From Agromyces terreus (lineage in GTDB: Bacteria; Actinomycetota; Actinomycetes; Actinomycetales; Microbacteriaceae), in assembly GCF_009749465.1 (NCBI RefSeq), contig NZ_WBIS01000004.1, positions 186,001 to 250,000 of the forward strand: DNA of 64,000 bases, written 5' to 3'. Numbering within the stretch: position 1 is the first letter of the stretch; each line of letters starts with the position of its first letter. Made by a program: the position numbers and the translations under genes. Positions 43,850 to 64,000 of this stretch are shown piece after piece. Under the pieces are notes generated by a model that worked only from the letters and a program-made list of their open reading frames with translations, did no database searches and had not been told where the DNA came from.

Positions 43850-43869
43850 CATACCGTCTAGTCGGTATG
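43850..43869. promoter_or_regulatory. TetR-type operator CATACCGTCTAGTCGGTATG, site 1
   Basis: A palindrome with perfect 7-bp arms around TCTAGT. It fills the spacer of a promoter: -35-like TTTGCG at 43843-43848 and -10 TATGCT at 43866-43871, 17 bp apart. It precedes the operon that contains the tetR gene at 44756, so repression with autoregulation is likely. Confidence 0.75.
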
Positions 43870-47192: not shown

Positions 47193-47270
47193 CGCCGGTC
47201 CGCGGCATCCGTCGGCTCGCGTAGGGTGGGAGCTTCCCCACCCGCCCCACCTCTTCGAGGGAGCTGCACC

Positions 47271-48791
47271 GTGCCCAGAACCGAGCAGGCCGTCGACGCG
47301 GCACGATACGCACCGAACCCGTCGGTGCTGACGGCGCTGCGCAGCCCGAAGATCCTGACCCGCGAGGTGCTCGCCGGCCTCGTGGTCGCCCTGGCCCTCA
47401 TCCCCGAGGCGATCTCGTTCTCGATCATCGCGGGCGTCGACCCGCGCGTCGGCCTGTTCTCCTCGTTCATCATGGCCGTGTCGATCGCGTTCCTCGGCGG
47501 CCGCCCCGCGATGATCACCGCGGCCACGGGCGCGGTCGCGCTCGTGATCGCGCCGGTCGCCCGCGACTACGGCATGGACTACTTCATCGCGACCGTGATG
47601 CTCGCCGGCGTGTTCCAGGTGGTGCTGGGACTGCTCGGCGTCGCGAAGCTCATGCGCTTCATCCCGCGCAGCGTCATGATCGGCTTCGTCAACTCGCTCG
47701 CGATCCTCATCTTCACGGCCCAGCTGCCGAACCTCATCGGCGTGCCGTGGCTCGTCTACCCGCTCGTCGCGGTCGGCATCCTGATCATGGTGTTCATGCC
47801 GCGCCTGACCAAGGTGGTGCCGGCGCCGCTCGTGGCGATCGTGCTCATCACGGTGGCCACCGTCGTGACGGCCGCCAATGTCCCGACCGTCGGCGACCAG
47901 GGCGAGCTGCCGCAGAGCCTGCCCGAGCTGTTCATCCCGAACGTGCCGCTCACGTGGGAGACCTTCCAGACCATCGCGCCGTTCGCGCTCGCCATGGCGC
48001 TCGTCGGCCTCATGGAGTCGCTCATGACGGCCAAGCTCGTCGACGAGATCACTGACACCCACTCGCGCAAGACCCGCGAGTCGCTCGGCCAGGGCGTCTC
48101 GAACATCCTCTCGGGCCTGTTCGGCGGCATGGGCGGATGCGCCATGATCGGCCAGACGATGATCAACGTGAAGGCGTCGGGAGCGCGCACACGCATCTCG
48201 ACCTTCCTCGCGGGCGTGTTCCTGCTGATCCTCGTGCTCGTGCTCGGCGACATCGTCGCGGTCATCCCGATGGCGGCGCTCGTCGCGGTGATGGTCATGG
48301 TCTCGGTCGGCACGTTCGACTGGCACAGCATCCGCCCGTCGACCCTGAAGCGGATGCCGCTGGGCGAGACCCTCGTCATGGTGCTCACGGTCGTCGTGGT
48401 CGTCATCACCCACAACCTCGCCATCGGGGTCGTCATCGGTGTCGTGGCCGCGATGATCGTGTTCGCGCGTCGCGTGGCCCACTTCGCCTCGGTCGAGCGC
48501 ACCGTCGACCTCGAGGCCGAGGAGCCGACCGCGCACTACGTCGTCACCGGCGAGCTCTTCTTCGCATCGAGCAATGACCTCACCACCCAGTTCGAGTACG
48601 CCGACGACCCCGAGCGCGTCGTCATCGACCTCTCGCGGTCGCACGTGTGGGACGCCTCGACCGTCGCCGCGCTCGACTCGATCACCACGAAGTACGCCCA
48701 GCACGGCAAGACCGCGGTGATCAAGGGCATGAACGAGGCCAGCGCGCGCATGCACACGCGTCTCGCCGGAAACCTCGGCGCCGGGCACTGA
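47271..48791 (+). CDS. SulP-family anion transporter with STAS domain
   Basis: A 506-aa permease. Residues 25-400 contain the SulP core: LTREVLAGLVVALALIPEAISFSIIAGVDPRVGLFSS, then GGRPAMITAATGAVALV and GLFGGMGGCAMIGQTMINVKASGARTRISTFLAG. The C-terminal 95 residues are a STAS domain with DLSRSHVWDASTVAALD. The family carries sulfate, bicarbonate or dicarboxylates; the substrate cannot be fixed. GTG at 47271 has GAGGGAG upstream. It lies 78 bp downstream of the SDR gene and could be co-transcribed with the tetR operon. Confidence 0.9.
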   Translation: MPRTEQAVDAARYAPNPSVLTALRSPKILTREVLAGLVVALALIPEAISFSIIAGVDPRVGLFSSFIMAVSIAFLGGRPAMITAATGAVALVIAPVARDYGMDYFIATVMLAGVFQVVLGLLGVAKLMRFIPRSVMIGFVNSLAILIFTAQLPNLIGVPWLVYPLVAVGILIMVFMPRLTKVVPAPLVAIVLITVATVVTAANVPTVGDQGELPQSLPELFIPNVPLTWETFQTIAPFALAMALVGLMESLMTAKLVDEITDTHSRKTRESLGQGVSNILSGLFGGMGGCAMIGQTMINVKASGARTRISTFLAGVFLLILVLVLGDIVAVIPMAALVAVMVMVSVGTFDWHSIRPSTLKRMPLGETLVMVLTVVVVVITHNLAIGVVIGVVAAMIVFARRVAHFASVERTVDLEAEEPTAHYVVTGELFFASSNDLTTQFEYADDPERVVIDLSRSHVWDASTVAALDSITTKYAQHGKTAVIKGMNEASARMHTRLAGNLGAGH

Positions 48792-49365: not shown

Positions 49366-49383
49366 ATACCGTCTGGTCGGTAT
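49366..49383. promoter_or_regulatory. TetR-type operator ATACCGTCTGGTCGGTAT, site 2
   Basis: Identical to site 1 over 18 positions except one central base (A to G). It is 41 bp before the start of the Liv-type transporter operon; a -10-like TACAGT at 49390-49395 follows. This places the transporter in the same regulon. Confidence 0.75.
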
Positions 49384-49423
49384 CTGTTGTACAGTGACCT
49401 GAAACCGACACGAAGAGGTGCCG

Positions 49424-50220
<797 letters not shown>

Positions 50221-50224
<4 letters not shown>

Positions 50225-50988
50225 GCGCCGAACGAACCGATGCCCGCGGCGCCCTCCGTGCCGCCGAGCGGACCGGCGCCGAACTGCGCCTCGAGGGGCT
50301 CACCGTCGGCTACGGCGGGGCTCCGGTGCTGCGCGGCGTCGACGTGCGGGTTCCGGCCGGCACGATCGTCGCGCTGCTCGGCGCGAACGGCGCGGGCAAG
50401 ACCACCCTGCTGCGCACGGTGTCGGGGCTCCTGCCCGCGGCATCCGGCCGCATCGTGTTCGACGGGGTCGACCTCGCCGGCGTCTCCGTCGAGGACCGCG
50501 CCCGCGCCGGACTCGCGCAGGTGCCCGAGGGGCGCAGCGTCGTCGCCGAGTTGACCGTCGACGAGAACCTGCGGCTCGGCGGGCTGCAGCGGTTCCGCGG
50601 GCGCCGGCTCACGGCCGCCGTCGACGGGATCTACGGCATGTTCGAGCCGCTCGCGCGCCGTCGCCGCGCCGCCGGGCACCAGCTGTCGGGCGGCGAGCGG
50701 CAGATGCTCGCCCTCGGCCGCGCCATCATCGCGGAGCCGCGCGTGCTGCTGCTCGACGAGCCCTCGCTCGGGCTTGCGCCCCGCGTGGTCGCCCAGATCA
50801 TGGCCGTGCTGCGCGGCCTGCGCGACGAGCGCGGCCTCACCGTGCTGCTCGCCGAGCAGAACGTCACGAGCGCGCTCGCCGTCGCCGACCACGGCGTCGT
50901 GCTGAACCTCGGCGAGGTCGTCGCCGACCGCCCGGCCGAAGACCTCCGCACCGACTCCGCCCTCCGCCACGCCTACCTGGGATTCTGA
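50221..50988 (+). CDS. Branched-chain amino acid-type ABC transporter ATPase (LivF-like)
   Basis: A 255-aa second ATPase of the transporter. Walker A is GANGAGKTT, the Q-loop region PEGRSVVAELTVDENL, the signature LSGGERQML and Walker B VLLLDEPSLGLAP, followed by LAEQNV. This is the LivF pattern. The ATG overlaps the livG-like stop. The first 22 residues are Ala/Arg-rich and not conserved. LivG- and LivF-type proteins form the ATPase heterodimer under the two permeases encoded downstream. Confidence 0.92.
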
Positions 50989-51866
50989 TGGACCGCCTCC
51001 TCTTCCTCCTCGCCACCGGCCTCGCGCGCGGCGCGATCTTCGCGCTGTTCGCCCTCGCCCTCGTGCTCATCTGGCGCGCCGCCCGCGTCGTGAACTTCGC
51101 CCAGGGGGCGATGGCGGTCGTCGCCGTCTACGTCGCCTTCGCGGTCACGGGGCTCACCGGCTCGTACTGGATCGGCCTCGCGAGCGCGCTCGTCGCGGGC
51201 GGGCTCATGGGCCTCGTCGTCGAACGCGGCGTGATGCGCTTCGCGAGCCACGCCTCGCCGCTGTCGGGCGTCATCATCGCGATCGGCGTCGTCATGGTGC
51301 TGCAGTCGGCGCTCGGCATCGCGTTCGGCTCGAACACCCGGCCCATGGAGGCGCCCTTCTCGGAGTCGCCCATCGTGATCGGCGGGGTTCCGGTGCTCTC
51401 GCCGTACGACCTGTTCGTGCTGATCCTCGCCGTCGGGCTCATGGGCGTGCTCGCCCTGCTCTTCACGCGCACCTCGCTCGGGCTGCAACTGCGGGCCTCG
51501 GCGTTCGCCCCCGAGGTGTCACGTCTGCTCGGCGTGCGCGTGACGCGCATGGTCACCGCCGGATGGGTGCTCGCCTCCGCCGTCGGCGCGCTCGCCGCCC
51601 TGCTGCTCGTGCCCACCGAACTCGGACTCAACCCGCACTCGGCCGACATGCTCTTCGTCTCGGCCTTCACGGTCGCGGTCGTCGGCGGGCTCGACTCCCC
51701 GCCGGGCGCGCTCATCGGCGGCCTCGCCGTCGGGGTGCTCATCAGCCTCGTCACCGGATACCTCGGCGCGACCGTCGCCCCGATCGCGGTGCTCGTGCTG
51801 CTCGTGGCCGTGCTGCTCGTGCGGCCGGGCGGCCTCTTCGCGACGACCGAGGCGAGGACCGCATGA
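50988..51866 (+). CDS. Branched-chain amino acid-type ABC permease (LivH-like)
   Basis: A 292-aa permease with about eight hydrophobic helices: FLLATGLARGAIFALFALALVLIWRAARVVNFAQGAMA is the classic LivH start. LGVRVTRMVTAGWVLASAVGALAALLL and FTVAVVGGLDSPPGALIGGLAVG carry the loop contacting the ATPases. The start shares one base with the previous stop. The substrate is not evident from the permease; the regulon context suggests an organic acid rather than an amino acid. Confidence 0.92.
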   Translation: MDRLLFLLATGLARGAIFALFALALVLIWRAARVVNFAQGAMAVVAVYVAFAVTGLTGSYWIGLASALVAGGLMGLVVERGVMRFASHASPLSGVIIAIGVVMVLQSALGIAFGSNTRPMEAPFSESPIVIGGVPVLSPYDLFVLILAVGLMGVLALLFTRTSLGLQLRASAFAPEVSRLLGVRVTRMVTAGWVLASAVGALAALLLVPTELGLNPHSADMLFVSAFTVAVVGGLDSPPGALIGGLAVGVLISLVTGYLGATVAPIAVLVLLVAVLLVRPGGLFATTEARTA

Positions 51867-53119
51867 GCGCCGACACGAACGCCCGCCCCGCGGCATCCGC
51901 AACGCCCCCGGCCGGCATCGAGGCCGCGACCCCGTCGCCGCGCACGAGCGGGCCGCTCACCACGAGCATCCGCGCCCCGCGCGAGCGCCGACGCCGCTCG
52001 ACGCCCCGCCTGCTCGTCACGGCCCTCGTGCTCACGCTCGTCGCGATCGGCGCGACCTTCCTGCTCGACCCGTACCGCAACTACCAGTTCGCCCTCATCG
52101 CGGCGACGTTCTGCGCGACCGCCGGGCTCACCCTGCTCATCGGCCTCACCGGCCAACTCTCGCTCGGGCACGCCGCGCTCATGGCGGCGGGCGGCTACGG
52201 CTACGCGCTCACCGCGAACGCGCTGACCGACGCGGGCGTCGACGGCGTGCCGAGGTTCGTGGTCTCGCTCGCGGCGGCGGCCGCGGCATCCGCTCTGCTG
52301 GGGCTCCTGCTCGGCCTCGCCGCAGCGCGCCTCAAGGGGCCGTACCTCTCGGGCGTCACGCTCGTGCTCGTCATCGCGCTGCCCGCGTTCACCTCGGTGT
52401 TCTCGGGGGTGTTCCGCGGGGACCAGGGCGTGCAGATCGCGTACGACGGGGTGCCCGAGGTGCTGCGCCGGATCATCGCGGTCGAGCAGTGGCAGGCGTG
52501 GGTCGCGATCCTCGTGGCCGCCGTGTTCGTGACCTGGCTCGCGGCACTCCGCAACGGCCGCGCGGGGCTGCGCATGCGCGCCGTGCGCGACGACGAGACC
52601 GCCGCCCGCCTGCAGGGCGTGCGCGCCGGCCGCGTCAAGGTCCTCGCGTTCACCGCCAGCTCGGTCACCGCGGGCGCGGGCGGCGCGGTGCTCTGCTTCG
52701 TCACCCAATCGGTCAGCCCCGGCGCGTACACGCTCGCGTTCTCGCTGCTGCTCCTCGTCGCCGTCGTCATCGGCGGACTCGGGAGCCTGCTCGGCGCGTT
52801 CCTCGGATCCATCGTGATCGTCATGCTGCCCTGGCTCATCCAGACCGCGACCGGCGCGCTCGACCTCTCGGCCGACGCCGCCCAGCGCCTCACCGGCAAC
52901 CTGCCCGTGCTCGTGTTCGGCGTGCTGCTCATCGTCGTGACCGCGGCGTGGCCCGGCGGCATCCGCGCGACGCTGCCGAAGCGGCTGTTCTCGAAGCGGA
53001 TGCCGCGGGCCGCCGCTGCTCCCGCCGCGGGCCCCGACGCGGCCGTCGCCGCGGACTCCGACCTCGAACCTCGCACCGATTCCGCAGCAGAACCCATCCC
53101 CACCACAACAGAGAGGTGA
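51863..53119 (+). CDS. Branched-chain amino acid-type ABC permease (LivM-like)
   Basis: A 418-aa permease. The N-terminal 45 residues are Pro/Thr/Arg-rich. Helices begin with LLVTALVLTLVAIGATFLL; LIGLTGQLSLGHAALMAAGGYGYAL and LRMRAVRDDETAARLQGVRAGRVKVLAF are LivM hallmarks, the latter being the coupling loop. VVIGGLGSLLGAFLGSIVIV follows. The C-terminal 60 residues form an acidic Ala/Asp tail beyond the last helix. The ATG overlaps the livH-like stop by 4 bp. Confidence 0.92.
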   Translation: MSADTNARPAASATPPAGIEAATPSPRTSGPLTTSIRAPRERRRRSTPRLLVTALVLTLVAIGATFLLDPYRNYQFALIAATFCATAGLTLLIGLTGQLSLGHAALMAAGGYGYALTANALTDAGVDGVPRFVVSLAAAAAASALLGLLLGLAAARLKGPYLSGVTLVLVIALPAFTSVFSGVFRGDQGVQIAYDGVPEVLRRIIAVEQWQAWVAILVAAVFVTWLAALRNGRAGLRMRAVRDDETAARLQGVRAGRVKVLAFTASSVTAGAGGAVLCFVTQSVSPGAYTLAFSLLLLVAVVIGGLGSLLGAFLGSIVIVMLPWLIQTATGALDLSADAAQRLTGNLPVLVFGVLLIVVTAAWPGGIRATLPKRLFSKRMPRAAAAPAAGPDAAVAADSDLEPRTDSAAEPIPTTTER

Positions 53120-53124
53120 CCGTC

Positions 53125-54420
53125 ATGTCCCACGCACCAACCCGCTCCGCACCCCGCCGCACCGTCGCGGCGGTGTCCGCGGCATCCGCCCTGCTGCTCG
53201 CGATGAGCGCCTGCAGCACCCCCAGCGGCGGCGGCGACCCCGCCGAGGCCGCGCCAGGCGTCACCGACGACACCGTGACGATCGGCACCCACCAGCCGCT
53301 CACCGGCCCGGCCGCCGCCGGCTACTCGTCGATCTCGGCCGCGACCACGGCGTACTTCGCGTACCTCAACGAGAACGGCGGCGTGAACGGCCGCGAGATC
53401 GAGTACCTCGTCAAGGACGACGGGTACAACCCGGCCAACACGCAGACCGTGGTGCGCGAGCTCGTGCAGGACGACGAGGTCTTCGCGATCCTCAACGGCC
53501 TCGGCACGCCCACGCACACCGCCGTGCTCGACTACCTCAACCAGAACGAGGTGCCCGACCTGTTCGTGGCATCCGGGTCGACGAGCTGGAACCAGCCCGA
53601 GGAGTACCCGTGGACCTTCGGGTTCAACGCCGATTACGTCACCGAGGCCGAGGCGCTCGCGCAGTACGCCGACGACGAGTTCGCGGGCCAGTCGGTCTGC
53701 ATGCTCGGGCAGGACGACGACTTCGGCGACGAGTTCCTCGAGGGCCTCGAGAACGTGCTCGGCGAGGGCTCGCTCGCGAGCGTGCAGCGCTACTCGGTGT
53801 CGAACCAGGACGTCGTGGCCCAGATCGGCGCCATGCAGGCCGCCGGCTGCGAGGTGAACATGCTCGCGACCGTCAACGGCTTCACCGCCCTCGCGATCGG
53901 CACGGCCGCCAAGCTCGGCTACCAGGCGCAGTGGATGTCGTCGTCGTCGGGCGGCGACTACGTGACCCTGGCCGGATTCCTCGGCGAGGCCGCCCCGCTG
54001 CTCCTCGAGGGCTTCGTCACGACGAACTACCTGCCCTACGCGCCGGGTAACGAGTGGGACGACCTGTTCCGCCAGATCAACGACGACTACAACGACGGCG
54101 CCCCGTTCGACGGCAACACCGTGTTCGGCATGTCGGTCGGCTACCTCTTCGCCGAAGCCCTGGCGAAGGCCGGCGACAACCCGACGCGGCAGGGCATCGT
54201 CGACGCCATCGCGTCGGGCGACCTCGTCGGCAACGGCCTCGTGCCGCTCGCCTTCGGCTCGGACAGCCACTCCGCGTACAAGGGCGTGTCGATCACGACC
54301 GTCACCGCCGGCGTGCAGGACTTCATCGGCGTGACCTACGTGAGCGATGGAGACGGCGGCGTCGAACCCTACGACGGCGACGCCGTGCCGCTCGAGAATG
54401 ACGGCGTCCCCACGTCATAG
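53125..54420 (+). CDS. Liv-type substrate-binding lipoprotein (LivK/amide-binding-like)
   Basis: A 431-aa lipoprotein with signal MSHAPTRSAPRRTVAAVSAA... and lipobox MSAC. The mature type I periplasmic-binding fold shows VTIGTHQPLTGPAAAGYSSISAATTAYFAYLNENGGVNGREIEYLVKDDGYNPANTQTVVREL, then GQDDDFGDEFLEGL. It belongs to the broad family that binds branched amino acids, amides, aromatic or fatty acids. GAGAGG precedes the ATG. It completes the operon and is followed by a strong hairpin. The ligand should be the inducer acid of the TetR regulon or a precursor. Confidence 0.92.
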   Translation: MSHAPTRSAPRRTVAAVSAASALLLAMSACSTPSGGGDPAEAAPGVTDDTVTIGTHQPLTGPAAAGYSSISAATTAYFAYLNENGGVNGREIEYLVKDDGYNPANTQTVVRELVQDDEVFAILNGLGTPTHTAVLDYLNQNEVPDLFVASGSTSWNQPEEYPWTFGFNADYVTEAEALAQYADDEFAGQSVCMLGQDDDFGDEFLEGLENVLGEGSLASVQRYSVSNQDVVAQIGAMQAAGCEVNMLATVNGFTALAIGTAAKLGYQAQWMSSSSGGDYVTLAGFLGEAAPLLLEGFVTTNYLPYAPGNEWDDLFRQINDDYNDGAPFDGNTVFGMSVGYLFAEALAKAGDNPTRQGIVDAIASGDLVGNGLVPLAFGSDSHSAYKGVSITTVTAGVQDFIGVTYVSDGDGGVEPYDGDAVPLENDGVPTS

Positions 54421-54432
54421 CCTCGAGCATGA

Positions 54433-54479
54433 GAACGGCGGATGTCTCGGGCCCGACCGGCCCGGGGCATCCGCCGTTC
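54433..54479 (+). terminator. Hairpin terminator of the Liv-type operon
   Basis: GAACGGCGGATG (54433-54444) pairs perfectly with CATCCGCCGTTC (54468-54479); the inner CGGGCC/GGCCCG segment can extend the stem. It starts 13 nt after the stop codon. Confidence 0.8.
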
Positions 54480-54786: not shown

Positions 54787-54823
54787 GCTTCATTCTCTCG
54801 CGTCGGTGTCGGCAATGTGCCGT

Positions 54824-54870
54824 GGACACGAATGGTCGCTTCCGCGGCTCGGAAGCGACCATTCGTGTCC
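54824..54870. terminator. Hairpin with perfect 21-bp stem and 5-nt loop
   Basis: Left arm 54824-54844 (begins GGACACGAATGG) is exactly complementary to right arm 54850-54870; the loop is CGGCT. It lies between the stop of the minus-strand acyl-CoA ligase gene (54886) and the start of the small membrane protein gene. It is the longest perfect short-loop stem I found in the window. Confidence 0.85.
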
Positions 54871-54885
54871 GCGAGCGGCGGCGCG

Positions 54886-56550
54886 TCAGCGCGCGTCCGG
54901 CGCCGTGACCGGCGAGTACTGCTCGACGAGCTGGCGCTTCAGCACCTTGCCGCTGCCGCCGAGCGGCAGGGAGTCCGTGACGTGCACCACGCGCGGGTAC
55001 TTGTAGGCGGCGATGCGCTCGCGGGTGAACGCGACGAGCGCCTCGGGGTCGACCTCGTGCCCGTCGAGGGCGACCACCGCGGCGTGCACCTCCTGCCCGT
55101 GGGTGTCGTCGGCGACGCCGAAGACGGCGGCCATGGCGACATCCGGATGCCGCATCATCACGGCCTCGACCTCGGTCGGGTACACGTTGTAGCCGTTGCG
55201 CACGATCATGTCCTTCTTGCGGTCGACGATCGTGATGATGCCGTCGACGATGGTGCCCAGGTCGCCCGTGCGGAACCAGCCGTCGACCACGGCCTCGGCT
55301 GAGGCATCCGGGCGCCCGAGGTAGCCCTTGAAGAGGTTGTGGCCGCGCACGACGATCTCGCCGAGGGCTTCGGGCCCGTCGAGGAACACGATGCGCCCCT
55401 CGATCTCGGAGTCGGCGATCGCCGCGTCGATGCCCCAGTAGGTGCGTCCGACGGTGCCGGGGCGGATGGGCTCGCCGACCATGTTGAACGACACCGTGGG
55501 GGAGGTCTCGGTGAGTCCGTACCCCTCGTGCACCTCGGCGCCGTACGCGCGCTCGAACGCCTCGAGCAGCGCGACGGGCAGGGCCGCGCCGCCCGAGACG
55601 GCGTAGCGCAGCGGGGGTGTGGAGTCGGCGCGGGCGGCGGCCTCGACCATGCCGACGAACATCGTCGGCACCGCGGTGAAGACCGTGGCGCCGTGCGCGT
55701 TCATGAGGTCGAGCGCCTGGTCGGGGTCGAACTTCGGCAGCAGGATGATCGACGCGCCCTTGCGGAACGCGATGTTCATGACCGCCGTCTGCCCGAACGT
55801 GTGGAACAGCGGCAGCCCGCCGAACACCACGTCGTCCGCGCGCATGTCGAACGCGTCGATGAGCGCGCAGTGCACCTGCTCGACGATCGCGAGGTGCGAG
55901 CCGACGGCGCCCTTCGGCGTACCGGTCGTGCCGCTCGTGTAGAGGATCGTCGCGGCATCCGTCGGTCGCACCGACACGTGGCGTTCGATGGGGGCGGATG
56001 CCGCGGCCTCCGCCTCGAGGCGGGGCAGGTCGGGGCCGCCGGACTCGACGGGCGGCGTGAGCACGGTCACGAGCGGCACGCCGGCGGATGCCGCGGCGGG
56101 CACGGCTTCGACGAGCAGCGGTCCGGCGGCGATGAGCACGTCGGCGCCCGAGTCGCGCAGCACGTACGCGATTTCCTCGGCCTTGAAGAGCAGGTGCACG
56201 GGCACGACCACGGCGCCGAGGGCGAGGGCGGCGTAGTACACGCGCGGGAAGTCGGGCACGTTCGGCACGAGCATCGCGACCCGGTCGCCGCGGCCGATGC
56301 CCCGATCGCGCAGGGCGCCCGCGTAGGCGCGGCTCTCGTCCCAGAGCGTGCCGTAGTCGATGGTGCGTCCCATGAAGTGCAGGGCCGGCCGGGTCGGCGT
56401 GCGCACGGCGGACTCGGCGAGCATGCTCGCGACCGAGAGGGTGCCGAAGCCGTCGCCGTCGACGGCGGGGTCGGGGGCGTGGGTGCGGGGCGGGGTGCGG
56501 GCCTCGGTGCGGGGCTCGGTGCGGGGCTCGGTGCGGGTCGTCGAAGTCAT
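54886..56550 (-). CDS. Acyl-CoA synthetase (AMP-forming)
   Basis: A 554-aa adenylate-forming ligase that activates a carboxylic acid to acyl-CoA. Motifs are ILYTSGTTGTPKGAV (P-loop, A3), GLPLFHTFGQT, VHEGYGLTETSP (A5), WFRTGDLG (A7), VDRKKDMIVRNGYNVYPTEVE (A8), and LPLGGSGKVLKRQL with the catalytic A10 Lys. The N-terminal 25 residues contain Arg/Thr/Pro-Glu repeats. GAAAGGA precedes the ATG. It is the last gene of the kinase-ACAD-ligase operon. Chain-length specificity cannot be read; FadD3- or LvaE-like medium or short acids are plausible. Confidence 0.92.
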   Translation of the reverse strand: MTSTTRTEPRTEPRTEARTPPRTHAPDPAVDGDGFGTLSVASMLAESAVRTPTRPALHFMGRTIDYGTLWDESRAYAGALRDRGIGRGDRVAMLVPNVPDFPRVYYAALALGAVVVPVHLLFKAEEIAYVLRDSGADVLIAAGPLLVEAVPAAASAGVPLVTVLTPPVESGGPDLPRLEAEAAASAPIERHVSVRPTDAATILYTSGTTGTPKGAVGSHLAIVEQVHCALIDAFDMRADDVVFGGLPLFHTFGQTAVMNIAFRKGASIILLPKFDPDQALDLMNAHGATVFTAVPTMFVGMVEAAARADSTPPLRYAVSGGAALPVALLEAFERAYGAEVHEGYGLTETSPTVSFNMVGEPIRPGTVGRTYWGIDAAIADSEIEGRIVFLDGPEALGEIVVRGHNLFKGYLGRPDASAEAVVDGWFRTGDLGTIVDGIITIVDRKKDMIVRNGYNVYPTEVEAVMMRHPDVAMAAVFGVADDTHGQEVHAAVVALDGHEVDPEALVAFTRERIAAYKYPRVVHVTDSLPLGGSGKVLKRQLVEQYSPVTAPDAR

Positions 56551-56610
56551 CGGGGAGTTCCTTTCATCGTCATTGATGGGTGCCGTGATGGCGGCGCGGT
56601 GGTGCTGCGG

Positions 56611-57819
56611 TCAGCGGGGCGTGCGGAGTTCGGCCTTGCCGAGGGCGCTCAGGTGCACCTCGTCGGGGCCGTCGGCCAGGCGCAGCACGCGCGCCCCGGC
56701 GAACATCTCGGCGAGCGGGGCGTCGCTCGAGACGCCCGCAGCGCCGAAGACCTGGATCGCCCGGTCGAGGATCTGCTGCACCGCGCGCGGCACGGCGATC
56801 TTGATCGACTGGATCTCGGTCATCGCCTGCCGGTTGCCGACCGTGTCCATGAGCCAGGCGGTCTTCAGCACGAGCAGGCGCAGCGACTCGACCTGGATGC
56901 GCGACTCGGCGACCCACTCGCGCACGACGCCCTGCTCGGCCAGCGTGCGCCCGAACGCGACGCGGCTGTTCGCGCGCTCCCGCACGAGCGACAGGGCGCG
57001 TTCGGCCATGCCGAGCGCGCGCATGCAGTGGTGGATGCGGCCGGGCCCGAGCCGCGCCTGCGCGATCGCGAAGCCGTCGCCCTCGCCCGCGATGAGGTTC
57101 GACGCGGGCACGCGCACGTCGTCGAACACGATCTCGGCGTGGCCGCCGTGGTCGCGGTCGTCGTATCCGAACACGCTCAGCCCTCGCACGACGGTGACGC
57201 CGGGGGCGTCGCGCGGCACGAGGATCATCGACTGCCGGCGGTGGCGTGCGGCATCCGGATCGGTCTGGCCCATGACGATGAAGATCGCGGCATCCGGGCT
57301 CATCGCGCCCGTCGACCACCATTTGCGCCCGCTGATCACGTACGAGTCGCCGTCGCGGCGGATGCGGGTCGCGATGTTCGTCGCGTCGCTCGACGCGACC
57401 TCGGGCTCGGTCATGCAGAAGGACGAGCGGATGTCTCCCGCGAGCAGCGGATCGAGCCACTCGCGCTGCTGCTCGGGCGTGCCGAAGTCGGCCAGCACCT
57501 CCATGTTGCCCGTGTCGGGCGCCGCGCAGTTCATCGCGACCGGCGCGAGGCGCGGCGACCAGCCCGTGGCCTCCGCGAGCGGCGCGTACTGCAAGTTCGT
57601 GAGGCCCGCGCCGCGCTCGCCCGGCAGGAACAGGTTCCACAGGCCCTCGGCACGGGCGGCCGTGCGCAGTTCGCCGACGACGGGGCGGAACCGCCACTCG
57701 TCGGGCGTCGCCGCGAGCTGCTCGTCGAGCACCGGCTCGGCCGGGATCGCCCGGTCGCGCACGAACGCCTCGACCCGGTCGATGAGGGCGAGCGTGCGGG
57801 CGTCGTGGCTGAAGTCCAT
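56611..57819 (-). CDS. ACAD10/ACAD11-like acyl-CoA dehydrogenase
   Basis: A 402-aa flavin-dependent acyl-CoA dehydrogenase. APDTGNMEVL, CMTEPEVASSDATNI (FAD loop), GRKWWSTGA, SMILVPRDAPGV, VFGYDDRDHGGHAEI, LGPGRIHHCMR and the C-terminal GAAGVSSDAPLAEMF then VLRLADGPDEVHLSA follow the ACAD11 branch closely. Human ACAD11 carries a fused N-terminal phosphotransferase; here that partner is the adjacent gene, two bases upstream. In 4-hydroxyacid catabolism this dehydrogenase class acts on the phosphorylated acyl-CoA, leading to 3-hydroxyacyl-CoA. The ATG at 57819 is set by family length. Confidence 0.9.
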   Translation of the reverse strand: MDFSHDARTLALIDRVEAFVRDRAIPAEPVLDEQLAATPDEWRFRPVVGELRTAARAEGLWNLFLPGERGAGLTNLQYAPLAEATGWSPRLAPVAMNCAAPDTGNMEVLADFGTPEQQREWLDPLLAGDIRSSFCMTEPEVASSDATNIATRIRRDGDSYVISGRKWWSTGAMSPDAAIFIVMGQTDPDAARHRRQSMILVPRDAPGVTVVRGLSVFGYDDRDHGGHAEIVFDDVRVPASNLIAGEGDGFAIAQARLGPGRIHHCMRALGMAERALSLVRERANSRVAFGRTLAEQGVVREWVAESRIQVESLRLLVLKTAWLMDTVGNRQAMTEIQSIKIAVPRAVQQILDRAIQVFGAAGVSSDAPLAEMFAGARVLRLADGPDEVHLSALGKAELRTPR

Positions 57820-57821
57820 GG

Positions 57822-58916
57822 TCAGGCTCCTGTGGTCGTGGCGGGCGTGGTCGGTGAGTCGGTCGTGTGCGACAGTCCGGTGCTCGCGAGCGGCTCGACG
57901 AGCTGGCCGATGCGGTCGAACCCCTCGCCGAGGGTCTGCCCCTGCCGGTAGCGGTAGTGGATGCCTTCGAGGATCACGGCGAGCTTGTACGCCGCGAACG
58001 CCCGGTACCAGGTGAGGTCGGGCGTGCGGATGCCGGCGGCGTGCGCGTAGCAGTCGACGAGCTCGTCGAACTCGGGGTACCCGGCCGCCGGATCGACGGC
58101 GCTGCGCGTGAGGCCGACCGCGTCGGGCGCGAGCGAGGCGATGTTCCAGTACATGCCGAGCATGCCGAGGTCGACGAGCGGGTCGCCGAGCGTGGCCATC
58201 TCCCAGTCGAGGATCGCCGCGATGCGGGGCGCGTCGGCCGGCCCGGCGATGATCGCGTTGTCGAGGCGGTAGTCGCCGTGCACGATGCCGCTCCGGATGC
58301 CGCCCGCGGGAGGCATCCGCTCCTCCAGTCGCTGCTGCAGTCGGTCGAGCTCGGGCAGGTCGCGGCTGCGCGAGGCCTCGAGTTGCCGGCGCCAGGTGCG
58401 CAGCTGCCGGTCGAGGTAGCCGTCTGGGCGCCCGAAGTCGGCGAGGCCGACGGATGCCGCGTCGACCGCATGCAGGCGGGCGAGCGTCTCCGCGAAGGCG
58501 AGTCCGAGCCCGTGCAGGCCCGCGGGCGTGTAGTCGGCGTTCTGGCGGGGGCTCGCGAGCACGACGCCCTCGACGACGCGCATCACGAAGAACGCGGTGC
58601 CGGTGACCCGCCCGGCCTCGGAATCGTCGACGAGGTCGACCGCCGGCGGCACCGGCACGCCCGACCCCGCCAGCGCGCTGATCACGCGGTGCTCGCGGCC
58701 CATGTCGTGGGCGCTCGCGAGCACGTGCCCGAGCGGCGGGCGGCGCACGATGAGCGGCACGGCCGGCCCGTCGACGCGGTACGTGAGGTTGCTGCGGCCC
58801 CCGGCGATGAGCGTGGCCGTGAGCGGGGCGGCCGGCGTCGCGGCGACGAGCTCGGGGTGCGCCTCGGCGAGCCACGCGGAGAAGCCCGCGAGGTTCAGCC
58901 CTGGGGTGTCGGTCAT
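57822..58916 (-). CDS. Phosphotransferase (APH/LvaA-like) partner of the ACAD
   Basis: A 364-aa kinase of the aminoglycoside-phosphotransferase fold. GGRSNLTYRV is the nucleotide loop, VRRPP contains the conserved basic residues, IVHGDYRLDN is the catalytic loop with Asp, and AILDWEMATLGDP the metal-binding Asp segment. The family (LvaA, and the N-terminal domain of ACAD10/11) phosphorylates the 4-hydroxyl of 4-hydroxyacyl-CoA. It is first gene of the operon under TetR operator site 3. The start at 58916 (AAGGCG upstream) is preferred over 58952. Antibiotic resistance is unlikely given the partners. Confidence 0.9.
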   Translation of the reverse strand: MTDTPGLNLAGFSAWLAEAHPELVAATPAAPLTATLIAGGRSNLTYRVDGPAVPLIVRRPPLGHVLASAHDMGREHRVISALAGSGVPVPPAVDLVDDSEAGRVTGTAFFVMRVVEGVVLASPRQNADYTPAGLHGLGLAFAETLARLHAVDAASVGLADFGRPDGYLDRQLRTWRRQLEASRSRDLPELDRLQQRLEERMPPAGGIRSGIVHGDYRLDNAIIAGPADAPRIAAILDWEMATLGDPLVDLGMLGMYWNIASLAPDAVGLTRSAVDPAAGYPEFDELVDCYAHAAGIRTPDLTWYRAFAAYKLAVILEGIHYRYRQGQTLGEGFDRIGQLVEPLASTGLSHTTDSPTTPATTTGA

Positions 58917-58998: not shown

Positions 58999-59018
58999 CA
59001 TACCGCGCGGTCGGTATG
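58999..59018. promoter_or_regulatory. TetR-type operator CATACCGCGCGGTCGGTATG, site 3
   Basis: The same 7-bp arms as site 1 around CGCGGT. On the minus strand the right arm runs into TATGCT (-10) with TTCGCG 18 bp upstream, so the operator again fills the promoter spacer. The kinase gene starts 83 bp downstream. Confidence 0.75.
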
Positions 59019-59206: not shown

Positions 59207-59653
59207 TCAGGCGAGCAGGCGGGACTCGATGGCCGAGCGGATGCCGGTGGGAATCGGCACGGGGCGGCGGGTCGCGGCATCCACGAAGACGTGCACGAAG
59301 CGGCCCTCGGCCAGCGGCTCGTCGTCGCCCGCGCGGTGGATGCCGAGCGACCACGTCACGCTCGACGAGCCGAGCCGTTCGATGCCGAGCGCGACCTCGA
59401 GCGGCTCGGGAAAGCTCGCCGACGCGCGGAACTCGCAGCTCGACGACACGACGAGCCCGATCGGGGCGTCGCCATGGGGGTCGAGGCCGGCGTGCTCGAT
59501 CATCCACGTGTTGACGGCCGTGTCCATCGCCTCGTAGTAGACGGTGTTGTTCACGTGCCCGTACTGGTCGTTGTCGTTCCAGCGGGTCGTGAACGGCCGT
59601 CGCTCGGGGCGATGCGGCCGGGTGACGGCGGGCTGGGGCATCCGCTCGCCCAT
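59207..59653 (-). CDS. 4HBT-family acyl-CoA thioesterase
   Basis: A 148-aa hot-dog thioesterase. RWNDNDQYGHVNNTVYYEAMDTAVNTWM is the YbgC/4HBT active-site segment with the conserved Asp-x-x-x-His-Val-Asn-Asn pattern. SCEFRASASFPEPLEVALGIERLGSSSVTW is the second conserved strand pair. It hydrolyses acyl-CoA, probably to recycle CoA or relieve acyl-CoA build-up. Its GTG or ATG start overlaps the regulator stop by one base (59653), so it is in one operon with the QsdR-like regulator. Confidence 0.9.
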   Translation of the reverse strand: MGERMPQPAVTRPHRPERRPFTTRWNDNDQYGHVNNTVYYEAMDTAVNTWMIEHAGLDPHGDAPIGLVVSSSCEFRASASFPEPLEVALGIERLGSSSVTWSLGIHRAGDDEPLAEGRFVHVFVDAATRRPVPIPTGIRSAIESRLLA

Positions 59654-60297
59654 CAGTCGGCCCGTAGCAGGATGCGGAACGCGCGCCGGGCCCGCGTCTC
59701 GCTCGGGGTGTCGCCGGCGATGAGGTCGGCGTAGGTGAACGACTCCGAGACGCGCACCAGAAGGTAGGCGAGTTCGTCGGGCGTGATCGCGCCGCCGAGG
59801 GGGCGCTCGCCGAGTTCTCGCTCGACGAGCCAGCGCGCGGTCGCGACGTAGCGGCGCTGGATCTCGCTCTCGGTCGTGGTGAGCAGCCGCAGCGCGCGGG
59901 CGGGTTCGCGGCGCAGGAAGTCGCGGAAGTAGTCGGCACTGATCAGCGCGCCCGCGAAGCTCGAGAGCTGTTCGGCCACGCGTTCGGCGCCGTGCAGCGA
60001 CTCGGTCGCGTGCTCCGAGAGCACGAGCGTGGGAACGGCGAGCGACCAGAGCACCTCGCTGAGCAGCGCGTCGCGGTTGCCGACCCAGCGGAACAGCGAC
60101 GTGCGGTCGACGCCGAGGCGGGTCGCAAGCGCGCCCATGTCGATGCGCCGGCCGTCGATGAAGGTCTCGCGGGCGAGGTCGAACGCGCGCACGGCGTCGG
60201 CGTGGGCGCCGTCGGCGAGCCGTTCGGAGAGCCAGGACGGTGCCGCGCGCAGGCCGATCTCGGCGATCTCGTGGGTGGGGGCGCTCGTCGTCGGCAT
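59653..60297 (-). CDS. QsdR-type TetR regulator
   Basis: A 214-aa TetR-like regulator. The DNA-binding part DMGALATRLGVDRTSLFRWVGNRDALLSEVLWSL has the RTSLFRWVG variant of the usual TLYYHFxxKE, as in QsdR-family regulators known from Rhodococcus. The C-terminal part (YLLVRVSESFTYADLIAGDTPSETRARRAFRILL) matches that family's ligand domain. It is divergent from the acyl-CoA dehydrogenase at 60388, with a 26-bp imperfect palindrome between them. It likely represses that dehydrogenase and itself in response to an acyl compound. Confidence 0.85.
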   Translation of the reverse strand: MPTTSAPTHEIAEIGLRAAPSWLSERLADGAHADAVRAFDLARETFIDGRRIDMGALATRLGVDRTSLFRWVGNRDALLSEVLWSLAVPTLVLSEHATESLHGAERVAEQLSSFAGALISADYFRDFLRREPARALRLLTTTESEIQRRYVATARWLVERELGERPLGGAITPDELAYLLVRVSESFTYADLIAGDTPSETRARRAFRILLRAD

Positions 60298-60329: not shown

Positions 60330-60355
60330 ATGCAACATTCTGGAAAATGATGCAT
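60330..60355. promoter_or_regulatory. 26-bp imperfect palindrome between qsdR-like regulator and ACAD gene
   Basis: ATGCAACATT at the left is matched by AATGATGCAT at the right (ATGCA-n-CATT...AATG-n-TGCAT). It is in an AT-rich patch midway in the 90-bp divergent gap. A likely operator of the regulator encoded at 59653. Confidence 0.65.
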
Positions 60356-60387
60356 AGTGGACGTGTTCACCGACGAACGGAGAAGCG

Positions 60388-61620
60388 ATGACGCTCACAC
60401 TCGACCCCCAGTCCCAGGCCGCCACGGCCCCCGCCGACGTGCTCGACGCCGACTTCTACGGCTTCCAGCGCCGGCTCACGGAGGCCGAGCAGATCTCGGT
60501 CGCCGAGATCCGCGACTACCTCGAACGCGAGGTGCGCCCCGGCGCCGACGACCGCTGGGAGGCGACGACGAGCCCGCGCCACCTGATCCCCGGCTTCGCC
60601 GAGCTCGGCCTCTTCGGCTCCGGCATCCCCGAGGTCGCCCACTTTGAGAACTCGGCCGTGTACCGCGGCTGGATCGCCCTCGAGATCGCGCGCGTCGACC
60701 CGTCGACCGCGACGTTCATCGGCGTGCACTCGGGCCTCGCGATGAACGCGATCGCCGTCGGCGGCTCGCCCGAGCAGAAGTCCGAGTGGCTCGAGCCCAT
60801 GGCCCGCGGCGAGCTCATCGGCGCGTTCGGCCTCACCGAGCCGCTGCACGGCTCCGACACGGCGAAGGGCCTGGAGACCACGGCGACCCGGCGCACGAAC
60901 GCCGACGGCGCCGACGAGTGGGTGCTGAACGGCGCCAAGCGCTGGATCGGCAACGCCACCTTCGCCGACGTCGTCGTCATCTGGGCGCGCGACACGGCCG
61001 ACGACCAGGTCAAGGGGTTCCTCGTGCGCCAGCCCGCCACGGGCTTCACGGCCACGAAGATCGAGCGCAAGCAGTCGCTGCGCGCCGTCGAGAACGCCGA
61101 CATCGTGCTCGAGGACGTCATCGTGCCCGAGTCCGATCGCCTGCAGGAGATCCACGGCTTCCGCGACGTCGCGATCGTGCTGCGCCTGACGCGGGCGGAT
61201 GTCGCGTGGCAGGCCATCGGCGTCGCGGTCGGCGCCTACGAGGCCGCCCTCGCCTACGCGAAGACCCGGGTGCAGTTCGGCAAGCCGATCGCGTCGTTCC
61301 AGCTCGTGCAGCAGAAGCTCGCCGACTCGCTCGCCGACATCACGGCCTCGATTGCGCTCTGCGTGCGGGTCAGCGAGATGCTCGACGAAGACGCCCAGAA
61401 GGACCACCACTCGGCCATGGCCAAGGCCTTCGCGACGAAGAAGATGCGCGAGGTCGTCGCCCGCAGCCGCGAGCTCATGGGCGGCAACGGCATCCAGCTC
61501 GACCACGGCGCCGCCCGGTTCTTCGCCGACGCCGAGGCCGTCTACACGTTCGAGGGCACGTACGACATGAACACGCTCATCGTCGGCCGCGCCATCACCG
61601 GCATCGCCGCCTTCGTCTGA
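60388..61620 (+). CDS. Acyl-CoA dehydrogenase (glutaryl/short-chain-like)
   Basis: A 410-aa flavoprotein. AFGLTEPLHGSDTAKGLETTA is the FAD loop, NGAKRWIGNATFADVVVIWAR follows, and the C-terminal FEGTYDMNTLIVGRAITG holds the catalytic Glu in the glutaryl-CoA dehydrogenase position. RELMGGNGI contributes to FAD binding. It should oxidise an acyl-CoA to enoyl-CoA. ACGGAG precedes the ATG. It is followed by the third GGTCGAGGAG repeat cluster and a thiolase, so a short beta-oxidation unit is likely. The substrate is not certain. Confidence 0.9.
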   Translation: MTLTLDPQSQAATAPADVLDADFYGFQRRLTEAEQISVAEIRDYLEREVRPGADDRWEATTSPRHLIPGFAELGLFGSGIPEVAHFENSAVYRGWIALEIARVDPSTATFIGVHSGLAMNAIAVGGSPEQKSEWLEPMARGELIGAFGLTEPLHGSDTAKGLETTATRRTNADGADEWVLNGAKRWIGNATFADVVVIWARDTADDQVKGFLVRQPATGFTATKIERKQSLRAVENADIVLEDVIVPESDRLQEIHGFRDVAIVLRLTRADVAWQAIGVAVGAYEAALAYAKTRVQFGKPIASFQLVQQKLADSLADITASIALCVRVSEMLDEDAQKDHHSAMAKAFATKKMREVVARSRELMGGNGIQLDHGAARFFADAEAVYTFEGTYDMNTLIVGRAITGIAAFV

Positions 61621-61633
61621 GCGCCGGTCCCGT

Positions 61634-61858: not shown

Positions 61859-63115
61859 ATGACCGAGGCCTACATCGTCGCCACCGCCCGCTCGCCCATC
61901 GGCCGCGCCCGCAAGGGGTCGCTCGCCGGCATCCGCGGCGACGACCTGACCGTGCAGATGGTCGAGGCCGCGCTCGCCCAGGTGCCCGCGCTCGACCCCG
62001 CGCGCGTCGAGGATCTGCTGCTCGGCTGCGGACAGCCCGGCGGAGAGCAGGGCATGAACATGGCCCGCATCGTGGCCGTGCTGCTCGGGCTCGACGGCCT
62101 GCCCGGCACCACCGTGAATCGCTACTGCTCGTCGAGCCTGCAGACGACGCGCATGGCGTTCCACGCGATCAAGGCCGGAGAAGGCGACGTGTTCGTCTCG
62201 GCCGGTGTCGAGTCGGTCTCGAACATGGGCGTCGGGTCGAGCGACTACATCCCGGGCGCGAAGCTGACCAACCCCCGCTTCGACGACGCCGAGGCGCGCA
62301 CGGCTGCGCGTGCCGCGGGCGGGGCGGATGCCGCGGGCGAGCCGGATGCCGCGAGCCTCCGCCCCTGGCGCGACCCACGTGAAGACGGGCTGCTGCCCGA
62401 CGCGTACATCGCCATGGGTCAGACGGCCGAGAACGTCGCGGAGCTGCGCGGCGTCACCCGCGAGGAGCAGGACGCCTTCGCCGCCCGCAGCCAGCAGCGC
62501 GCCGAGGCGGCGATCGCGTCGGGCTTCTGGGCGAACGACATCACGCCCGTCACGCTCGCGGACGGCACGGTCGTCTCGGCCGACGACGGCCCGCGCGCGG
62601 GCGTCACCGTTGAGGCACTCGCCGGGCTCGACCCGGTGTTCCGCCCCGACGGAACGGTGACCGCCGGCAACTGCTGCCCCCTGAACGACGGCGCCGCAGC
62701 GGTCGTCGTGGTCAGCGACCGCATCGTCGACGAGCTCGGCCTGCAGCCACTGGCCCGCATCGTGTCGACCGGCGTCTCGGGGCTCTCGCCCGAGATCATG
62801 GGACTCGGACCCGTCGAGGCCTCGCGCCGGGCCCTCGCCCGCGCCGGACTCTCGATCGACGACATCGACCTCGTCGAGCTCAACGAGGCGTTCGCCGCCC
62901 AGGTGATCCCGTCGGCGCGCGAGCTCGGCATCGACGAGGAGCGCCTCAACGTGCACGGCGGCGCCATCGCCGTCGGACACCCGTTCGGCATGACCGGCGC
63001 CCGCATCACGTCGACCCTCATCAACGGGCTCGCCGCGACCGGCGGCCGCTACGGGCTCGAGACGATGTGCGTCGGCGGCGGCCAGGGCATGGCCCTCGTG
63101 CTCGAGCGCGTCTGA
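61859..63115 (+). CDS. Acetyl-CoA C-acyltransferase (thiolase)
   Basis: A 418-aa thiolase. The acylated Cys is in VNRYCSSSLQ; the second active site is GGAIAVGHPFGMTGAR with His, and CVGGGQGMALVLE carries the third Cys. ELNEAFAAQVIPS is the conserved dimer segment. It cleaves 3-ketoacyl-CoA to acetyl-CoA in beta-oxidation. GAGAGGA precedes the ATG. A 25-residue Ala/Asp-rich insert (ARTAARAAGGADAAGEPDAAS, near 150-170) contains two ADAAG/PDAAS units encoded by the over-represented GCGGATGCCGC motif. Confidence 0.93.
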   Translation: MTEAYIVATARSPIGRARKGSLAGIRGDDLTVQMVEAALAQVPALDPARVEDLLLGCGQPGGEQGMNMARIVAVLLGLDGLPGTTVNRYCSSSLQTTRMAFHAIKAGEGDVFVSAGVESVSNMGVGSSDYIPGAKLTNPRFDDAEARTAARAAGGADAAGEPDAASLRPWRDPREDGLLPDAYIAMGQTAENVAELRGVTREEQDAFAARSQQRAEAAIASGFWANDITPVTLADGTVVSADDGPRAGVTVEALAGLDPVFRPDGTVTAGNCCPLNDGAAAVVVVSDRIVDELGLQPLARIVSTGVSGLSPEIMGLGPVEASRRALARAGLSIDDIDLVELNEAFAAQVIPSARELGIDEERLNVHGGAIAVGHPFGMTGARITSTLINGLAATGGRYGLETMCVGGGQGMALVLERV

Positions 63116-63618: not shown

Positions 63619-64000
63619 TCAGGCCGCGGGCACGAGCAGGGTCACCCACTGCGCGATGAGCGCGGGCTTGTCGGATCCGTCGATCTCGATCGTGAGGTCC
63701 TGCACGACGCGAACGCCGGTCGAGGTGAGCTCGGCCGACCCGATCGTGCCGACCGCGCGCACGCGCGAGCCGACGGCGACGGGCTGCAGGAACCGCACCC
63801 TCTCGAAGCCGTAGTTCACGCCCATCGCGACGCCGTCGACGTCGAGCAGGGGGGCCGCGAGGAAGCTCAGCAGCGACAACGTGAGGAATCCGTGGGCGAT
63901 CGGCCCGCCGAACGGTCCGGCGGTCGCGCGCTCGACGTCGACGTGGATCCACTGGCGATCCTCGGTGGCCTCGGCGAACGCGTCGATACGGGCCTGGTCG
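63619..64000 (-). CDS. MaoC-like enoyl-CoA hydratase, N-terminus cut by window edge
   Basis: 127 residues are visible; the start lies beyond 64000. TEDRQWIHVDVERA corresponds to the MaoC hydratase motif with the catalytic Asp/His, and GPFGGPIAHGFLTLSLLSFLAAPLL is the following central hot-dog helix. The C-terminal strands VRFLQPVAVGSRVRAVGTI and VQDLTIEIDGSDKPALIAQWVTLLV are typical. The reading frame is open to the edge without a stop, so the short TTG start at 63879 is not real. It probably adds water to the enoyl-CoA made by the dehydrogenases in this block. Confidence 0.88.
   Translation of the reverse strand, partial: DQARIDAFAEATEDRQWIHVDVERATAGPFGGPIAHGFLTLSLLSFLAAPLLDVDGVAMGVNYGFERVRFLQPVAVGSRVRAVGTIGSAELTSTGVRVVQDLTIEIDGSDKPALIAQWVTLLVPAA

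Follow-up and report, generated by a model that had tools for sequence, protein, structure and literature searches.

A split ACAD11-like kinase and dehydrogenase beside a Liv-type importer in a conserved, apparently co-regulated gene cluster of Agromyces terreus

Two kinds of described system come closest to the locus reported here, a gene cluster in a 64,000-nucleotide stretch of the Agromyces terreus genome (contig NZ_WBIS01000004.1, positions 186,001 to 250,000 of the forward strand; hereafter ‘the window’). The lva operon of Pseudomonas putida (LvaABCDEFG) serves levulinic acid catabolism through a proposed 4-phosphoacyl-CoA route, according to the passages on it in two papers (PMC6692424, PMC11342911), the first of which also gives it a sigma54 regulator and, for transport, an ActP-type permease plus a small partner protein. 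In mammalian ACAD11, R626, H634 and R637 hold the 4-phosphate of the substrate, R631 has a general role and D753 is the catalytic base, and non-conservative substitution of the three phosphate contacts was most disruptive for the acyl-CoA dehydrogenase (ACAD) step (PMC12440821). The window holds a minus-strand row of three genes, for an APH-fold kinase (Kin), an ACAD and an acyl-CoA ligase (Lig), next to a Liv-type ABC importer. The gene set as a whole is conserved and apparently co-regulated, and its make-up suggests that an unusual hydroxylated acid is imported and then enters fat breakdown by way of ACAD11-like phosphorylation. Our reading, to which we give a probability of about 0.7, is that TetR control joins the genes into a catabolic regulon, which would take up an acid oxygenated at carbon 4 (4-oxo or 4-hydroxy) and degrade it completely by beta-oxidation. 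The chemistry is already known; the importer and the regulatory packaging are apparently new.

The ACAD matched solved structures of ACAD11 best (2wbi, 6e-137; 8v3u, 3e-135; 8v3v, 2e-134), followed by an uncharacterised ACAD (4hr3, 6e-125), with the remaining ACADs appearing only from 7e-41 down. The likeness is not a chance one, since the ACAD11 structures rank far above other ACADs. In the alignment with 8v3u, 218 of 393 residues were identical (55%). The printed chain of 8v3u is numbered one below PMC12440821, and with this offset applied all five ACAD11 residues were found in the window protein: R256, R261, H264, R267 and D383 correspond to R626, R631, H634, R637 and D753. As a control we used ACAD2, a conventional ACAD of the same cluster that is 27% identical to the first; it has Val, Arg, Val, Gln and Glu at the five positions, that is, none of the three 4-phosphate contacts and Glu in place of Asp. 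Fold, closest similarity, phosphate contacts and the Asp that replaces the catalytic Glu all place the window ACAD in the ACAD10/11-LvaC subgroup. An earlier, sequence-only reading of this DNA had made the same assignment from the motifs GRIHHCMR and LRLADGPDEVHLSA, and had coupled the enzyme to a kinase with the motifs HGDYRLDN and LDWEMATLGDP; all four are present in the translations.

These residues were then followed in two sets of relatives (numbers with G, L, C and f below are our handles for genomes, loci, contigs and families). The first set comprises 21 genomes taken from the strongest kinase matches among the 32 other kinase-bearing genomes of a 299-genome family sample, and is thus a selected and not a random one; G254 and G180 contributed one shorter stretch only. 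The second comprises the best 80 of 571 confirmed kinase loci (‘named loci’). All five phosphate-site and catalytic residues were invariant in the 22 ACADs of the family set, the window counted. The best ACAD match reached at least 50% at 57 of the 80 named loci; R256, R261, R267 and D383 were kept at 56 of these and H264 at 54 (Tyr at two), with one locus uncovered. Five further loci with ACAD matches of 33-40% had all five residues.

The kinase gene lies directly upstream, with two bases (57820-57821) between its stop codon and the ATG of the ACAD, and 60 bases separate the ACAD from the ligase. This three-gene row, the two-base spacing and the presence of an acyl-CoA ligase in the operon had been described before and are all as they were then given. 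The solved sequences nearest to the kinase were 9o56 (3e-54), 3dxp (1.5e-48) and ACAD11 itself (8v3v, 1.9e-46), the last with 97 of 292 aligned residues identical (33%). D215, N220 and R170 of the kinase correspond to the catalytic Asp D220, N225 and R176 of ACAD11, R74-E75 to its helix-C Arg-Glu pair, and D237 is likewise present. For ACAD11 R86 we relied on its described place next to the helix-C Glu, as the printed number is off by 3 there and by 1 elsewhere. The key residues were invariant in 22 of 22 family-set kinases and in 80 of 80 from the named loci. The protein therefore has what marks a 4-hydroxyacyl-CoA kinase, namely the APH fold, the catalytic Asp, the Asn and the CoA-contacting arginines.

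Structure prediction, which the sequence-only reading had suggested as a check of the kinase-ACAD pair against ACAD11, gave a divided answer for the kinase. The AlphaFold model of the kinase (pLDDT 87.6) did align with 8v3v, at Z 21.4 over 229 residues and 33% identity, but three other kinases scored higher: 3dxp (Z 31.0), Rv3168 (29.9) and the 25-hydroxysteroid kinase 9ft5 (28.9). A family that is missing from such structure-alignment rows is not thereby evidence of anything; the three that are present weigh against our reading. They would fit a kinase that acts on some other hydroxyl, a tertiary or ring alcohol of a larger branched or cyclic acid, with the ACAD-fold partner removing the phosphate, and the substrate would then not be a simple 4-hydroxy fatty acid. 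The model matches 9ft5 and Rv3168 over more residues than ACAD11, and the additional short-chain dehydrogenases (SDRs), quinone oxidoreductase (QOR), alcohol dehydrogenase (ADH) and esterase of the cluster suggest a more complex substrate. Against this, identity in the alignment was 33% with ACAD11 and 20-21% with the steroid kinase and Rv3168, and the entire 4-phosphate site is present in the ACAD, which makes another hydroxyl quite unlikely in our view. The kinase fold alone leaves the substrate unfixed, and its ACAD partner carries most of that assignment. Taken together, the diagnostic residues kept in both proteins argue for a split ACAD11 with chemistry of the ACAD11 and LvaA/LvaC type, as had been proposed. 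Both proteins are homologous to mammalian ACAD10/ACAD11 along their length and keep the phosphate-site residues; the mammalian enzymes are one chain, while here there are two genes. We know of no counterpart, for the mammalian enzymes, of an operon with its own importer.

In the pathway that we favor, a carbon-4 route, the Liv-type importer would take up the acid and the ligase, judging from its family, would convert it to the CoA thioester. A ketone on carbon 4, if present, may be reduced by an SDR, probably SDR1. The kinase would phosphorylate the 4-hydroxyl of the resulting 4-hydroxyacyl-CoA, as its residues and its operon partner suggest, and the ACAD11-type enzyme would take the phosphate off to give 2-enoyl-CoA, using FAD without net oxidation and relying on residues experimentally needed in ACAD11. 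MaoC would turn the 2-enoyl-CoA into 3R-hydroxyacyl-CoA, which the FabG-like SDR3 would oxidise before thiolase cleavage. The substrate had previously been proposed to be a 4-hydroxyacid or an acid derived from a gamma-lactone. A 4-hydroxyacid would be compatible with the predicted ACAD11-type 4-phosphate chemistry; the gamma-lactone part is a guess, because the proteins scanned included no identifiable lactonase, their sole hydrolase being a beta-lactamase-fold, LipL-like esterase just past the window. An actinobacterial point of comparison is the qsd operon of Rhodococcus erythropolis (qsdR, qsdA, qsdC), which serves catabolism of lactones and N-acyl-homoserine lactones (AHLs). It is likewise TetR-controlled and has an acyl-CoA ligase, but it differs in having the lactonase QsdA, and the passages on qsd name no kinase, ACAD or Liv genes (PMC6262395).

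Like lva as described in the passages cited, the cluster has separate, clustered genes for a kinase (LvaA), an ACAD (LvaC), an SDR (LvaD) and a ligase (LvaE), but it differs in its Liv ABC importer, TetR-type regulon, MaoC, FabG-like SDR3, thiolase, thioesterase, QOR, Zn-ADH and esterase. Among the open reading frames (ORFs) that were scanned, which are not all of those in the window, there was no counterpart of the sigma54-type LvaR, both cluster regulators being of the TetR family, and none of LvaF/LvaG-type transport, the cluster transporters being the Liv ABC system, one MFS protein and a sulfate permease. DUF6285, a domain to which LvaB may belong, had no match in the genome, a result that we do not use as a test for LvaB. 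The cluster would thus work like lva, and we do not class it as an lva operon because its regulator and transporter differ.

The sequence-only reading had further spoken of a regulon that includes the importer. This now has support from a palindrome: ATACCGnCYGnnCGGTAT stands before SDR1, LivG and the kinase (Table 1), and it recurs in relatives. The window holds six strand matches, a number reached in 0 of 100 shuffles. In the whole genome, five places match on both strands with at most one mismatch, the three window sites and two others, C22:252088 and C12:516782. The former (L021, ~6088-6105) is 2.1 kb past the window, between the Zn-ADH-SDR3-MaoC operon, with which the cluster continues, and the gene for the LipL-like/beta-lactamase-fold esterase. 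Seven more places in the genome match on one strand with one mismatch; these are at background level, since a reversed control pattern also gives seven. The site at C12:516782 (L022) is a variant palindrome, TACCAACTGGACGGTA, between a different TetR-like ORF and an ORF that reads as MFS-like in translation, and is perhaps that neighbouring TetR's own operator.

We surveyed the operator in 28 stretches (the window, the 21 relatives and six more), allowing one mismatch in the 12 half-site bases. Sites no more than 350 bp upstream were found for Kin in 20 of 24 cases, LivG in 11 of 16, ADH in 11 of 18, the beta-lactamase-fold gene (Bla) in 7 of 14, SDR1 in 8 of 23 and MFS in 1 of 3. By the same measure it preceded 0 of 198 internal genes (TetRA 20, QOR 16, SDR2 15, Lig 18, ACAD 25, thioesterase (TE) 16, TetRB 15, ACAD2 15, Thio 14, MaoC 22 and SDR3 22). 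At the named loci the kinase had an upstream operator in 31 of 80 cases, against 8 sites in 1.45 Mb elsewhere. Operators were present at 27 of the 30 named loci with a TetRA homologue (at least 38% identity, 70% covered) and at 4 of the 50 without one (Fisher 6.6e-14), although these loci are not independent because many are from Streptomyces. From this co-occurrence, TetRA is likely the regulator that acts on the palindrome sites; it would repress the operons and probably be released by one of the pathway's CoA thioesters. A second repeat, resembling ATGCAnCATTnTnnnrAATGnTGCA, was found between TetRB and ACAD2 in 10 of the 15 stretches holding both genes. It is perhaps the mark of a second TetR circuit within the cluster, in which TetRB may govern TE and the ACAD2-thiolase divergon through its own repeat.

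Matches to TetRA in the PDB include the TetR regulators KstR2, MbdR and DarR. The same TetR fold and operator core are also found in PaaR of Burkholderia cenocepacia, whose operator is given as ACCGACCGGTCGGT in a passage of PMC2770484, and the cluster might accordingly be a PaaR-like regulon for phenylacetate-type aromatic acids. Hydroxybenzoate and coumarate binders do appear among the fold matches of the substrate-binding protein (SBP), and paa genes are found elsewhere on this contig (C22:30.8-33.2 kb). However, the surroundings of those paa genes hold no match to the 16-base pattern, even with one mismatch allowed, for which reason we rank the idea very low, and the paa ring-oxygenase domain was not among the scanned cluster proteins. 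To our knowledge, the ACAD11 phosphate site has no role in the phenylacetate pathway.

Gene order across the cluster (SDR1-TetRA-QOR-SDR2 / LivGFHM-SBP / Lig-ACAD-Kin / TE-TetRB / ACAD2-Thio / MaoC-SDR3-ADH) was largely kept in 10 of the 21 relatives, in one of which (G194) it ends with the contig, and was looser in the others. In three genomes (G143, G241 and G080) Kin, ACAD, SDR3, MaoC and Lig stand together in one direction, an arrangement that points to the core steps of activation, phosphorylation, phosphate removal, hydration and oxidation. Within the family sample the kinase (E 1e-40 or better) was found in 33 of 299 genomes and SDR1 (E 1e-80 or better) also in 33, with 28 in common (Fisher 2.8e-29; shared ancestry is uncorrected in this and the other co-occurrence counts). 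Two genomes of the window's own genus (G142 and G280) had no match to kinase, SBP or SDR1. In a class sample of 394 genomes the kinase was present at E 1e-50 in 252 (64%); kinase and ACAD by themselves are ordinary in the class. Among 114 genomes of Gammaproteobacteria, 14 had an ACAD match, giving 16 stretches of which 8 had the kinase and none matched the window SBP. At one of the gammaproteobacterial loci, L237, genes weakly similar to LivF/G/H (27-37%) stand at a distance of 5-9 kb from the kinase and an ACAD of the ACAD11 type. Elsewhere, a plasmid neighbourhood carries kinase, ACAD and SDR genes flanked by IS3 genes.

The importer (49418-54420, plus strand) is convergent with the ligase and comprises the full LivG/F/H/M and SBP set: the genes of two ABC ATPases and of two BPD_transp_2 permeases form one row with that of a Peripla_BP_6 protein, as in HAAT/Liv importers. 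It is thus as complete as those, and differs from them, and from the system of the solved SBP 4n03, in having a kinase-ACAD operon as its genomic partner. Cys30 of the SBP was invariant across 15 rows and is presumably the lipoprotein cysteine. No paper on a Liv importer paired with ACAD11/Lva chemistry was found in searches of an open-access collection, judged by titles and abstract openings. In 11 of the 21 relatives, kinase and Liv genes are no more than 20 kb apart. In G143, G080 and G241 the Liv genes are 28-40 kb away, directly behind SDR1-TetRA-QOR (SDR2 was not found); there the site is about 2 kb upstream of SDR1, past a divergent esterase gene, and none stands directly before SDR1 or LivG. 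A close SBP (at least 59% identity) was present in 15 of 299 family genomes, and all 15 have the kinase (hypergeometric 1.4e-16).

Linkage was also found further afield. At 7 of the 80 named loci an SBP match of at least 39% lies near the kinase, a count that omits L149 and L156 (28% SBP match) and L165 (Liv genes, no SBP match). Two of the seven are from Microbacterium; those from Virgisporangium, Winogradskya, Paractinoplanes and Nocardioides terrae have an ACAD of at least 65%, and Actinomadura bangladeshensis has the SBP near the kinase without the ACAD. In the class sample, importer, kinase and ACAD are linked in one genome of family f8 (G536) and four of f34 (G665, G672, G361 at ~10 kb and G421 at ~17 kb), and the 20 genomes with the best SBP matches (~43% and up) all have the kinase. 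On a 49-row SBP tree, in which L245 and L259 were left unlabelled and L189-L191, where 28-40 kb separate Liv and kinase, formed a third group, the linked label required 7 changes, of which at least 5 fell on starred branches, as opposed to 15.3 when shuffled, and none of 500 shuffles was as low. The linkage is clustered on the tree, yet it has been gained or lost several times.

Several observations weigh against a fixed bond between importer and kinase, or against parts of the proposed regulon. A close SBP is missing beside the kinase in seven of the 21 relatives, and G653, from the window's genus, has kinase, ACAD, SDR1 and TetRA and no SBP match. Eight further family genomes have a distant SBP (29-41%), only one of them (G180) with the kinase. 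In the class sample, 103 of 394 genomes have an SBP at E 1e-50, and the kinase is found in 67 of these compared with 252 of 394 overall, which is no association at this lax threshold (Fisher p 0.81). This result arises because family f33, with small genomes, has distant SBPs and almost no kinase: 33 of its genomes have distant SBPs (33-39%) and no kinase. In five genomes of f21 (L248, L249, L251, L252 and L254) a related kinase stands behind a Liv operon, and no ACAD was detected beside it, so that importer and kinase may be put to another use there; the L251 stretch ends 0.6 kb past the middle of its kinase match. Another 17 SBP relatives (38-57%) have no kinase in the stretch examined. No ACAD match at E 1e-40 was obtained for 18 of the 80 named loci, some of which are incomplete. 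Finally, genes that might be expected to have their own site lack it at LivG in 5 of 16 cases, at SDR1 in 15 of 23 and at the kinase in 4 of 24 (G139, which has TetRA, G066, G130 and G254). Given the family and class counts, the tie between SBP and kinase is limited to the close subfamily and some other families and does not extend to all relatives.

The importer could, then, be a mere neighbour that carries branched-chain amino acids or aromatic acids, while the kinase-ACAD pair uses 4-hydroxyacyl-CoA. The missing association at class level, the kinase-free SBP relatives and the importer-free kinase loci are what such a neighbour would leave, and solved Liv-type SBPs among the fold matches are mostly amino-acid or aromatic-acid binders; the top 50 folds of the SBP model (pLDDT 85.8) hold binders of amino acids, aromatics (hydroxybenzoate, coumarate) and urea, a further point against a fatty-acid ligand. 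The two tied at the top, however, are 4n03 (Z 40.5, 366 residues, 22% identity) and 4kv7 (Z 40.4), and 4n03, from Thermomonospora curvata and titled as the SBP of a fatty acid ABC transporter, is also the best match by sequence (5e-17). From the model, the ligand leans fatty-acid-like, though not decisively. In addition, LivG is preceded by the same operator, synteny is kept, the close SBP and the kinase co-occur in every case, and linkage appears in several families spread across the SBP tree. We therefore regard an unrelated neighbour as unlikely. The claim that a dedicated Liv-type importer belongs to this chemistry holds insofar as both share a cluster and the same kind of site; exclusive the tie is not.

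Returning to the carbon-4 regulon, we tentatively extend it, in a form that we think possible though short of an even chance: the close Liv subfamily may import fatty acids with a 4-oxo or 4-hydroxy group, either oxylipin-like or released from lactones. With a TetR that senses CoA thioesters, it may make up a regulon by which an actinobacterium salvages oxidised lipids, with key chemistry and enzymes in common with the mammalian ACAD11 route. The papers cited tie ACAD10/11-LvaA/LvaC chemistry to enzymes of mammals and proteobacteria. The cluster places it in an actinobacterial genetic context that is complete and open to testing, from the importer and a sensor whose candidate operator is defined to the entry enzymes and a beta-oxidation tail of the MaoC/FabG type. 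Operator and binding protein are direct handles on the natural substrate. Should the importer bind 4-oxygenated acids, an orphan Liv subfamily would gain a ligand class, and the parts could serve in biosensors and in levulinate or lactone upgrading.

Table 1. Positions of the cluster genes, operator-like palindromes and neighbouring features in the window.
Feature	Position	Strand	Evidence or remark
Operator-like palindrome ATACCGTCTAGTCGGTAT	43851..43868	.	Before SDR1-TetRA-QOR-SDR2
SDR1, short-chain dehydrogenase, nearest solved DHRS4	43910..44650	+	Pfam, PDB; candidate 4-oxoacyl(-CoA) reductase, putative LvaD-like role
TetRA, TetR-family regulator (TetR_C_24)	44756..45355	+	Predicted to act on palindrome sites
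QOR, zinc-type NAD(P)H:quinone oxidoreductase family	45352..46443	+	
SDR2, short-chain dehydrogenase	46440..47192	+	
SulP-type sulfate permease with STAS domain	47226..48791		Between SDR2 and LivG
Operator-like palindrome ATACCGTCTGGTCGGTAT	49366..49383	.	Before LivG
LivG-type ATPase	49418..50224	+	Pfam ABC_tran + BCA_ABC_TP_C
LivF-type ATPase	50221..50988	+	
LivH-type permease	50988..51866	+	BPD_transp_2
LivM-type permease	51863..53119	+	BPD_transp_2
SBP, substrate-binding protein	53125..54420	+	Peripla_BP_6
Lig, acyl-CoA ligase, 554 aa	54886..56550	-	AMP-binding 2.3e-87; nearest solved FadD13
ACAD, ACAD11/LvaC-type, 402 aa	56611..57819	-	Acyl-CoA dehydrogenase domains; predicted 4-phosphoacyl-CoA to 2-enoyl-CoA
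Kin, APH-fold kinase, 364 aa	57822..58916	-	Pfam APH 1.3e-45; predicted 4-hydroxyacyl-CoA kinase
Operator-like palindrome	59000..59017	.	84 bp upstream of kinase start
TE, 4HBT_2 thioesterase-like protein	59207..59653	-	
TetRB, second TetR regulator (TetR_C_36)	59653..60297	-	
Second inverted repeat ATGCAACATTCTGGAAAATGATGCATAG	60330..60357	.	Between TetRB and ACAD2
ACAD2, conventional acyl-CoA dehydrogenase	60388..61620	+	
Thio, acetyl-CoA C-acetyltransferase	61859..63115	+	NF005890 over its cut-off
MaoC-like hydratase, runs past window end	63619..64000	-	Putative R-specific 2-enoyl-CoA hydratase

The sulfate permease was left out of the system, since tblastn did not match it in any of the 21 relatives' neighbourhoods. 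No NCBIfam model scored over its cut-off for the kinase, the ACAD or the ligase. Behind the convergent importer and ligase genes lie two hairpins (54433-54479 and 54821-54873; arms 90% and 96% complementary, 5-nt loops), and between the two operons a minus-strand ORF (54517-54786) encodes an 89-aa hydrophobic product without a Pfam match. A scan for sigma-70 promoters and terminators returned one promoter-like and one terminator-like site. The thiolase gene is flanked by tandem repeats, at 61628-61776 (29/80-bp unit with CCGGTCGAGGAGGCGC) and at 63300-63444 (19/57-bp unit).

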